Assembly: GCA_017516285.1 (NCBI GenBank)
Contig: JAFXDD010000019.1
Coordinates: forward strand, 1-16,178
DNA from: Lachnospiraceae bacterium
GTDB lineage: Bacteria > Bacillota_A > Clostridia > Lachnospirales > Lachnospiraceae
Length of the DNA: 16,178 bases
Reading direction: 5' to 3'
Below the pieces are notes generated by a model. That model did no database searches. It had not been told where the DNA came from and saw only the letters and a program-made list of their open reading frames with translations. Position numbers and translations under genes: made by a program. Below, in pieces: positions 4,756 through 11,448 of the stretch. How positions within the stretch are numbered: position 1 is the stretch's first letter; each line of letters starts with the position of its first letter.

Positions 4756-6411
4756 ATGAAGAAAAGAGTATCCGTTATTCTGTTAACTTTATCTATGTTT
4801 TGTTTGGCTTCATGCGGTATCTCAGAGGCACCAAATAATATTGTCTCTACACCGAAGCCTACGGCGACGACTCCTGCCGTAAAGGAAGAGTTTGCGACTA
4901 CAGAGACCACACCGGAACCAACACATAATCTAACGGCAGCAGAGTTGTTTGCCACTGTTCTGAGAGATGAAAAGTCCATATATTTCAGTGAGTTGGGATA
5001 CAATAGGCAGACGGAGTTGCCGCCTTCCAAAACAGGCACTATCTCAGAACTTCAGTTCGGATATGAAAACCACTATAATATCGCAAATTTCGCAGTGGTA
5101 GATTTGGACGGCAATAGGATTCCGGAAGTAATCCTGGAGGTGGAGGAATATTTTGGTTATATCATTCTGAGCTGTCAGGATGGCCGTATTACCGGGAATG
5201 GTATGTACTATCGGGGATTTTGTGACTTGAAGAAAGATGGACTTTATTTTTCCACCAGCGGAGCAGCTTATGGTCAAATTAACCGATTGTATTTCATGGG
5301 TGATACATGGGAAAGCGATGTTTTGGCAGAACATAACGATATGCAATATTTTGCTAAGGACATCATTACAGATGAGCGTGCCTGGAAAAAGGCATATGAA
5401 GAATTCGATAATAAGGAATCCGCAGAGTGGTATGCCTTTACGCCGGAAAATATTGATATTTATGTGCTGAAGAATAAGGAGCTGGCAATTAAGTATGCTG
5501 ATTTGCCTAAAGAACTTAAGAATCGGCAGGAATATTTGGACTCTCTGAGTTATTTGCAGGAGCTGACTTATGATTTATATCAGAAGTCAGAAGAGGAATA
5601 CAAAGAAGCTGTCAAGTCTTATTTCGAACATTGTGAAGGAGAGATGGAGAAAATACTGTATCAGTGTATAGACAAGGAAGGTCCGGGGGCAGGGCTGGAA
5701 AAGGAACAGCAGATTTGGCAGGAGAATTTTGATAAGAGATTAAAGGAAACTTTATCCATTCATAAATGCAATAGTATAGAGGAGCTGCTGAATTCAGATT
5801 TCGGTTTTTTGTATTGGGAGTACGGTGATATGATGCTGCGACGTACCTTGCGGCTATTGGACAGGTATTATGAGTGCGGTGAGTACCGCGTGTTACCCAC
5901 CAAAAATGTAGAGGAGGGTCATACATTCCGTGAGGTGAAGGAAACCATCACAGCTAAGAATGCTACCAATCTGCGGAATATGCCCAGCCAAGGAGAGGAT
6001 AGCAAGGTGATGGTCACTCTGAAAAACGGTCAGACCGCTACCCGAATCGGTATCAGTGATACGGGCTGGTCCAAGGTGGAGTATGAGGGAGTGATTTACT
6101 ATGCTGTGTCAAGCTATCTGACAACGGATTTAACAAAGCCCACACCGGAGCCAACGCCTACTCCGGAACCGGTGGATGACGGCATCAAGACAGTATTTAC
6201 TCCTTGTGAGGAGATGGTATCGCCCAAGATAGAGGTCAATTTACGGGCCCTTCCCAGTGTAACCCATCCGGATGCGGTAGTGGTGGTGAAGCTGCCTTAC
6301 GGGGCAGTGGTAAAGCGTACCGGTATTAATACGGACGTGGGCTGGTCCCGGGTAGAATATGAGGGACAAACCCTGTACTGCGTGAGCAGTTATGTATACG
6401 TGGTAGAGTAA
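4756..6411 (+). CDS. Lipoprotein with two C-terminal SH3b domains
   Basis: This 551-residue predicted surface lipoprotein begins MKKRVSVILLTLSMFCLASC, a classic signal peptide with lipobox LASC and lipid-bearing Cys20. A Thr/Pro-rich spacer follows. Residues roughly 50-200 include FAVVDLDGNRIPEVILE, an Asp-rich repeat-like stretch often seen in Clostridia lipoproteins. Residues about 270-385 are helical and charged, and vaguely like the LprI/DUF1311 type. Two bacterial SH3 (SH3b) units sit at about 395-455 and 490-551. Each has the NLRxxPS start and a GW(S)(K/R)VEYEG core, and a Pro-Thr-Glu linker (about 460-475) joins them. SH3b units commonly bind peptidoglycan, so a wall-associated role is likely. 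The start at 4756 is chosen because GGAGGG (4742-4747) precedes it and it opens the signal peptide. An in-frame ATG at 4735 lacks such support. Confidence 0.85.
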   Translation: MKKRVSVILLTLSMFCLASCGISEAPNNIVSTPKPTATTPAVKEEFATTETTPEPTHNLTAAELFATVLRDEKSIYFSELGYNRQTELPPSKTGTISELQFGYENHYNIANFAVVDLDGNRIPEVILEVEEYFGYIILSCQDGRITGNGMYYRGFCDLKKDGLYFSTSGAAYGQINRLYFMGDTWESDVLAEHNDMQYFAKDIITDERAWKKAYEEFDNKESAEWYAFTPENIDIYVLKNKELAIKYADLPKELKNRQEYLDSLSYLQELTYDLYQKSEEEYKEAVKSYFEHCEGEMEKILYQCIDKEGPGAGLEKEQQIWQENFDKRLKETLSIHKCNSIEELLNSDFGFLYWEYGDMMLRRTLRLLDRYYECGEYRVLPTKNVEEGHTFREVKETITAKNATNLRNMPSQGEDSKVMVTLKNGQTATRIGISDTGWSKVEYEGVIYYAVSSYLTTDLTKPTPEPTPTPEPVDDGIKTVFTPCEEMVSPKIEVNLRALPSVTHPDAVVVVKLPYGAVVKRTGINTDVGWSRVEYEGQTLYCVSSYVYVVE

Positions 6412-7070: not shown

Positions 7071-7094
7071 AGTGTGCAAATTTTTTGCCTGTCT

Positions 7095-7100
7095 TATAAT
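7095..7100 (+). promoter_or_regulatory. Consensus -10 box just upstream of structured element copy A
   Basis: A perfect TATAAT lies at 7095-7100. No good -35 is seen at 16-18 bp spacing. Transcription from it would begin near 7106-7108, about 5-7 nt before the first paired base of the structured element (7113). It could also serve the downstream decarboxylase operon. Confidence 0.4.
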
Positions 7101-7112
7101 GATAGTTTAATT

Positions 7113-7260
7113 GGGCACATTGTAGGGTGATATATGTCCTATAAAGAACTCTTGAAAAACGTCGGCCCTTGGCGATGGTACTTTCGAGCCTAGTGCCGCT
7201 ACGTTTTTCACGAAGCGAGAGCGGGTTCGTATAGGATATATATCATCCTACAAGGAGCCC
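7113..7260 (+). repeat. Structured repeat element, copy A (candidate structured RNA)
   Basis: The 148-nt element folds almost completely. GGGC 7113-7116 pairs with GCCC 7257-7260. After a 3x3 internal loop, 7120-7143 pairs with 7230-7253 over 24 continuous pairs, two of them G.U. Next, GAACTC 7146-7151 pairs with GGGTTC 7223-7228. Then GAAAAACGT-CGGC 7154-7166 pairs with GCCG-(CT bulge)-ACGTTTTTC 7195-7209. This continues into an apical helix CTTGGC 7168-7173 / GCCTAG 7188-7193 with a T.T mismatch. A short arm at 7215-7222 can form GC-GAGA-GC with a GNRA loop. The same core recurs at 11222-11438. It has no coding sequence, no T run and no transposase nearby. It ends 29 nt before the decarboxylase start. 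It could be a non-coding RNA, a cis-acting leader or a MITE-like element. Confidence 0.8.
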
Positions 7261-7275
7261 TGCAATACGTATTAT

Positions 7276-11217: not shown

Positions 11218-11221
11218 TAAG

Positions 11222-11438
11222 AATTGGGTTGGGGATAATGTGCTTATGTACTGTTGATTGATGCACATTATGTCCTATAAGCAAGGTCTTGAAAAACGTC
11301 GGCCCTTAGTGAGGTCAAGCCGCTTGCGGCTTCGAACTTAGTGCCGTTACGTTTTTCACGAAGCGAAAGCGTCCTGCGTTAGGATATAATGTGTGGCAAT
11401 CAACTTTGGGTGGAAAATCCCCCATCCCTAACCCAATT
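11222..11438 (+). repeat. Structured repeat element, copy B (candidate structured RNA)
   Basis: This is a second, longer copy (217 nt) of the element at 7113-7260, in the same orientation. The outer stem 11222-11236 pairs with 11424-11438 (15 bp, one G.U). Then GTTGATTG 11253-11260 pairs with CAATCAAC 11397-11404. After a 3x3 loop, CACATTATGTCCTA 11264-11277 pairs with 11380-11393 (14 bp, one G.U). The core matches copy A: GCAAGG 11281-11286 / CCTGC 11373-11377; GAAAAACGT-CGGC 11291-11303 / GCCG-(TT bulge)-ACGTTTTTC 11343-11357; apical CTTAGT 11305-11310 / ACTTAG 11336-11341; and an extra hairpin AAGCCG-CTTG-CGGCTT 11317-11332. A GC-GAAA-GC arm lies at 11363-11370. It fills the yaaR-holB gap and ends 10 nt before the holB ribosome-binding site. 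Confidence 0.8.
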
Positions 11439-11448
11439 TTATCAAAAC

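Follow-up and report, generated by a model that had tools for sequence, protein, structure and literature searches.

A dispersed hairpin element of Lachnospiraceae with one conserved, covarying core behind different IS66-type ends

Two look-alike hairpins in a stretch of Lachnospiraceae bacterium DNA (16,178 nucleotides, here called the window, part of contig C39 of the genome G000) are members of a short, dispersed family of elements that carries no transposase gene and that, by the tests made, is a MITE. The distinctive trait of the family, as read from its sequences, is a conserved, covarying core that is common to different ends. The family is probably moved by IS66-family transposases, and its hairpins would be transcribed together with neighboring genes and fold as + strand RNA with an effect in the 3' untranslated region. 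A sequence-only reading of the window had proposed a structured RNA and had set that proposal against a MITE. Its RNA-like folded core stands, and the whole turns out to be a mobile element and no standalone RNA gene.

Both hairpins are real in sequence and in folding, as the sequence-only reading had it. Copy A (7113-7260, + strand) has a predicted fold of -75.8 kcal/mol (z -8.76, equalled by none of 200 shuffles), and copy B (11222-11438, + strand) taken with its flanks has one of -86.4 kcal/mol (z -7.02). The neighbors of copy A are an HD-domain gene and an Orn/Lys/Arg-decarboxylase-like gene; those of copy B are a DUF327 gene and a gene of the DNA polymerase III delta-subunit type. All four are on the + strand. 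A TATAAT can be read at 7094-7099, upstream of copy A, and no common promoter was seen by eye in the sequences flanking the copies. The window itself opens with two tRNA genes (17-182).

In copy A, which the covariance model matches at G000:C39:7003-7135, the 5' strand of a copy-specific arm, P2 (7120-7143), pairs in the fold with its 3' strand (7230-7253). The arm encloses the conserved core (7144-7229), delimited by sequence, fold and the alignment of copies, which holds a long helix with a CT bulge and a T.T mismatch and a GC-GAGA-GC mini-hairpin. The corresponding parts of copy B are arm P2 (11253-11279 and 11379-11404, from the fold) and a core with an extended apical hairpin (11280-11378, from sequence, fold and alignment). 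The two base-pair changes reported earlier between the copies, G7171:C7190 to A11308:T11338 and C7173:G7188 to T11310:A11336, are correct in the sequence. The conserved T.T mismatch is also present, and sits at T7170.T7191, beside those pairs rather than between them. The hairpins had been located properly, but the elements are larger than was thought: the outermost inverted repeat of copy B, read from the sequence (11222-11236, the complement of 11424-11438), forms a further outer stem, and the stretches absent from the matching sites of the genome G092 span about 191 bp for copy A (~7083-7273) and about 228 bp for copy B (~11220-11447), with ends that are approximate in the alignment.

The consensus of the family runs from a copy-specific arm P2 of ~20 bp through a small internal loop and a short helix into a three-way junction. 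One branch of the junction is a long helix with a two-base CT bulge on its 3' side and the T.T mismatch, and with what reads as tandem G.A pairs near its tip; the other is a two-pair mini-hairpin, GC-GARA-GC. The apical part of the core is of variable length between aligned copies, and where the ends are intact, the terminal repeat pairs into a further outer stem. Apical hairpins have been gained, lost or swapped between orthologues. A different small repeat, made of two adjacent hairpins (AGAGAACGTC...GACGTTCTCT and AAGAATTGC...GCAATTCTT), also occurs within element copies in either orientation, at L007, L020 and L167 (G000 and G092).

Covariation in the larger alignment is strong. Across 102 distinct sequences, both partners have changed in 43 of the 49 pairs, 91.8% of pairing cells are paired as against 64.5% after shuffling, and the covariation score of 0.682 drops to 0.07-0.13 when the partners are slid and is matched by 0 of 500 shuffles; these values lean towards the structure because the alignment was fitted to the model (R1) itself. 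The asymmetric features of the core, the CT bulge and the mini-hairpin, are kept in the consensus over 103 matches in named genomes. A search of Rfam with copies A and B gave nothing at E<=5. With four relatives it gave MIR918 (59.4 of 268 bits, E 3e-8) and MIR9783 (34.3 of 100 bits), both far below gathering, and these miRNA-precursor matches are taken as generic matches to a long hairpin. A known Rfam RNA or riboswitch was rejected, with no curated family reaching its gathering score on copies A and B or on the four relatives. On its structure, its covariation and the lack of an Rfam match, the earlier description is upheld.

The element is abundant and its range is broad within one family. 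The genome G000 has 32 blastn matches, two of which (L020 and L025) are parts of a single interrupted copy; a covariance model built from 26 aligned copies has 38 matches there and finds 28 in G092, 62 in G012 and 76 in G017. Among 41 genomes, 25 from the genus and 16 from other families, the core was found in 16, every one of them in the genus. A survey of the family, in which 10 candidates per genome were scored and copy numbers are lower bounds, found the core in 108 of 299 genomes and in 107 of 298 genera, while a class-wide sample gave matches in 7 of 245 genomes, all 7 in the same family. The sequence-only reading had made its proposal depend on further homologues and on wider covariation, and both are plentiful.

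A pattern scan of named genomes found at least 119 stretches. Among these, 80 are listed; apart from some that are labelled Clostridia, Clostridiales, Clostridiaceae or uncultured bacterium, their titles name Lachnospiraceae or genera of that family. The core-bearing family is taken as Lachnospiraceae because of the titles among these listed matches. The covariance model matches all 80 of the named loci, with 103 matches in all. A phage or plasmid element was ruled out, as one exact pattern had 0 matches in viral contigs and copy A had no blastn match in plasmids or phages.

Mobility is seen at empty sites. The closest genome found, G092, which was the best in the genus sample and is 78-88% identical in the matched pieces, aligns without copy A and without copy B at the matching sites, arms included. 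At the empty site of copy A, G092 joins ...GTGAGCAAATT directly to ATAAAGG...; this comparison is with G092 alone, and copy A may have been gained in G000. At the site of copy B, the two genes are 0-67 bp apart in 12 genomes, G092 included (the genomes whose listed matches reach both gene ends on one contig), which indicates that copy B was gained in the G000 lineage. One locus in the two genomes stands apart: L046 (G000) and L146 (G092) have identical 1440-bp flanks on both sides in genomes that are otherwise 12-22% different. L146 is likely a contaminating contig in G092, which is listed as 6% contaminated, because another G092 locus, L163, is orthologous.

The ends of the element are best seen in relatives, where ~180-260 bp lie between terminal repeats. 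The 14-bp terminal inverted repeat GTAACAGTTCAGCC is found in G012, G230, Robinsoniella and a [Clostridium] symbiosum MAG. Complete copies in G012 (20 of 62 were read) are bounded by GTAACAGTTCAGCC...GGCTGAACTGTTAC or near variants, and the GTAACAGTTCAGCC end occurs 72+72 times in that genome at <=1 mismatch; ends of this type bound 3 of the 6 copies in G230. The genome G166 has the same core behind other ends, GTTACTTTTCAYGGGGTGGGG-like and ~21 bp long. No exact match to GTAACAGTTCAGCC occurs in G000, a TIR-like word lies within 90 bases of 14 of the 103 named matches, and neither end set was seen by eye in the copies fetched from G350 and G226. The GTAACAGTTCAGCC repeat is not specific to the core. 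It occurs in 45 of 101 genus genomes, also in G010, a genome without a core match, and is paired at many spacings, often ~40-530 bp in the listed places. Judged by these occurrences, GTAACAGTTCAGCC ends mark a broad set of IS66-type MITEs.

Target duplications of 8 bp, counted at 7 or more matching positions of 8, flank 6 of 16 usable copies in G012, 3 of 4 in G166, 1 of 3 in G230 and 3 of 5 named copies, and cross-pair controls gave 0/240 (G012) and 0/12 (G166). For this count G012 contributed 20 of its 62 matches, G230 contributed 3 of the 6 loci fetched, and 5 were taken from the 14 named copies with TIR-like words. Copies from G350 and G226 were left out, and so were 4 of the 20 from G012 and 4 of the 8 from G166, in which an end was truncated or matched poorly. 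No target duplication is visible at copies A and B. The family is classed as a MITE because of its terminal inverted repeats, its 8-bp target duplications, its empty sites and a matching IS66-family transposon in one relative. Copies can also be rearranged in place: L182 is a complete copy between the arms of an older, core-less copy, a nested replacement, and comparison of L191 (near 5735-5739) with L100 shows one element whose core is deleted in one species with both arms partly left.

The likely source of mobility is suggested by the ends. The portion of PMC11946415 used here describes IS66 elements as having 8-bp direct repeats and inverted repeats that start with GTAA (GTAAGCG), and the present family has the 8-bp repeats and GTAA ends in common with them. 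Unlike IS66-family insertion sequences, the element lacks a transposase gene, and none of the PF03050 loci examined was found to contain its core. The one autonomous element with matching ends is in G166, where L400 (one of three IS66-family loci) has an IS66-family ORF between two identical 21-bp ends, which differ from the best MITE end by 1 base and from the others compared by 1-4; no clear target duplication of its own was found. The IS66-family elements of G006 (end GTAACTATTCAG) and G017 (ends GTTACAGTTCAG/GTTACTGTTCAG) have perfect 8-bp duplications.

The presence of IS66 does not track that of the core. Across 18 genomes PF03050 was found in 6: of the 12 that match the core, 2 have it (G006 and G017), and of the 6 that do not, 4 have it. 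It was also found in 1 of 10 genomes of a further sample. It was not found in G000, G092, G005, G230 or G012, the last being a genome 73% complete. An internal-deletion derivative that still shares its core with an IS66 parent was rejected, with no core in 11 PF03050 loci or in 9 further loci (3 with PF03050). Because the ends and IS66 do not track the core and one core has different ends, the core looks like cargo of IS66-type ends or a part swapped between them.

Copies in G000 lie mostly at the 3' ends of genes. In G000 and G092 together, 23 copies are between convergent genes, 20 are co-directional in sense, 10 are co-directional in antisense and 2 are between divergent genes; one further copy had no upstream gene in view, and L146 and the short L158 were dropped from the G092 set. 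No 3' preference appears among the single copies of the wide named sample (++15, --14, +-7, -+13; n=49, with 30 paired, 16 edge, 5 far and 3 neighborless matches left out). A T-rich tail follows 9 of the 23 convergent, 3 of the 20 sense, 1 of the 10 antisense and 0 of the 2 divergent copies, against 212 of 2240 background windows, and a terminator-like appearance is limited to a minority of copies. An alternative measure, superseded because it reached past the stem end, counted 12 of 89 copies at T>=5 of 6. In the part of PMC3049150 used here, pneumococcal repeats are over-represented between convergent genes, which is read there as tolerance.

If the arms paired as DNA alone, G·T and A·C mismatches should be equally common. 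The arms of G000 copies have 45 G·T and 4 A·C, which bears out the earlier choice of the + strand as the best reading, and those of G092 have 31 and 8. Copy by copy, 35 lean to G·T, 1 leans to A·C and 20 tie. The ratio is 47:26 in 96 named copies (p 0.019) and 12:13 in G017; shared subfamily ancestry inflates such counts somewhat. Counting was restricted to the continuous helix, with the innermost 7 pairs skipped and a stop at 3 consecutive mismatches (analyst's choices), because unrestricted arm counts run into unrelated flanks; two unrestricted runs gave 90:34/87:34 for G000, 57:21/56:20 for G092 and 23:48/22:47 for G017. L146 was dropped from the G092 count and 7 of the 103 named matches were dropped for lying near a locus edge. 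The bias supports + strand RNA folding in G000 and G092, does so weakly in the family and does not in G017. Compensatory changes are also seen between orthologous copies (e.g., L034/L140 and L055/L155). Together, G·U tolerance and position suggest an RNA role for the core.

A rival account takes the element to be a selfish DNA hairpin in which one arm is copied onto the other at replication by template switching, with no selection at the RNA level. Several observations fit it. Robinsoniella copies with near-identical cores differ in their arms by symmetrical blocks, the arms of G017 are Watson-Crick at 491 of 526 positions with strand bias absent, and the 3' preference is missing from the wide named sample. 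At single loci in two species the element can lie in opposite orientations (L044/L149 and L047/L154). A locus can also have members of different subfamilies in two species. Arm-to-arm copying and conversion between copies would be the likeliest source of the head-to-head, orientation, subfamily, apical and arm oddities. However, arm-copying does not predict the excess of G·T over A·C (76:12 in G000 and G092, and the smaller excess in the named copies), and the asymmetric core has been kept over the 103 matches. It also sits badly with three orthologous head-to-head pairs, in which identity is higher in the arms (247/264) and middles (492/520) than in the spacer (665/796, gaps excluded); a fourth such pair, L100/L191, has one core deleted and was left out. 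As the full explanation, the selfish hairpin is rather unlikely. Another, doubtful prospect is that an RNA cassette travels as cargo, the three-way-junction core having been repackaged behind at least two unrelated IS66-type end sets and kept by selection on its fold.

Other accounts fare worse. An immobile, standalone structured RNA acting in cis or in trans, as in the sequence-only reading, would explain the strong covariation and the + strand bias, but it is very improbable for an element that has terminal repeats and target duplications, is missing from matching sites and recurs tens of times beside unrelated genes. The copy-specific arms might instead be terminator hairpins into whose loops the core had inserted. 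L035, L038, L051 and L060 do lie within a stem that has a T run after it, and L182 is nested between an older copy's arms; yet neither empty site tested (A and B in G092) has a palindrome or hairpin, on which ground this route was ruled out, and arms differ at one locus in two species (L047/L154 and, by eye, L020/L148), so that it is left with hardly any probability. Mobilization as a REP/REPIN-type element by a Y1 (RAYT) transposase would suit a palindromic, extragenic element that is often found in inverted pairs (among neighbors within 1.5 kb, 14 are head-to-head, none tail-to-tail and 1 in the same direction). REPs are ~20-40 bp, whereas the present element is ~200 bp, is bounded by terminal inverted repeats and 8-bp duplications and has a match in the IS66 family, which makes this origin extremely unlikely.

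No description of the element was found in the open-licence PMC literature, as far as titles and the openings of abstracts go. Its function is most likely comparable, by analogy, to that of NEMIS, ERIC, BOX and SPRITE elements. As described in the sections of PMC10969869 and PMC3049150 that were available, the NEMIS/Correia elements of Neisseria are MITEs co-transcribed with genes, and RNase III cuts the transcript at the terminal repeats. The present family resembles them in its MITE nature and, presumably, in co-transcription, which is reported for Neisseria; it is unlike them in that the interior too is a conserved, covarying asymmetric fold and in that the ends are IS66-type. The pneumococcal BOX, RUP and SPRITE repeats are likewise small and mobile with predicted RNA folds, and SPRITE is terminator-like (PMC3049150, same sections); positions between convergent genes are a further likeness. 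Their hosts given there are S. pneumoniae and S. mitis, with BOX relatives in S. suis, whereas the present family spans more than 100 genera and has one core behind different ends. ERIC elements, in the available sections of PMC10969869, are intergenic palindromic MITEs with many copies, which at the 3' ends of Yersinia genes alter transcript levels; the likeness, by description only, is that of an intergenic, palindromic, multi-copy MITE in other hosts. Candidate palindromic structured RNAs from the human microbiome, computational and in some cases terminator-like according to the parts of PMC8040213 consulted, share the palindromic form. The main text of that paper has neither "Lachnospiraceae" nor "transpos", and the present family may overlap with its supplementary models.

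In the preferred account, copies A and B would be old members of a nonautonomous mobile family moved in trans by IS66-family transposases. That mobilization is supported in relatives by the repeats, the 8-bp duplications and one transposon, and would extend to copies A and B, in which the ends have decayed. Every copy would form one long imperfect hairpin, running from the terminal repeat through the copy-specific arm to the core with its three-way junction. Copies in G000 would stay mainly 3' of genes, be transcribed with the neighbor and fold as + strand RNA, as G·U tolerance and position suggest. The likeliest effect would be that of a hairpin in the 3' untranslated region that ends or protects the mRNA or gives RNase III a double-stranded site. 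If the cassette account is true, the transposon would supply mobility and the RNA a benefit (e.g., antitermination, 3'-end protection or host-factor binding), and the core would often be installed as head-to-head pairs.

MITEs are often pictured as transposon ends with passive filler in between. In this family the filler is the conserved part, an RNA-like core that recurs in 107 of the 298 genera sampled and lies behind different transposon ends, and the arms change completely while the pairing stays. This offers a way to test whether covariation is in every case proof of RNA function or whether DNA palindromes can produce it too, and it carries a warning that covariation screens for new RNAs will catch MITEs. 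For these gut bacteria, the family supplies candidate mRNA 3' elements, with tens of them in a genome.
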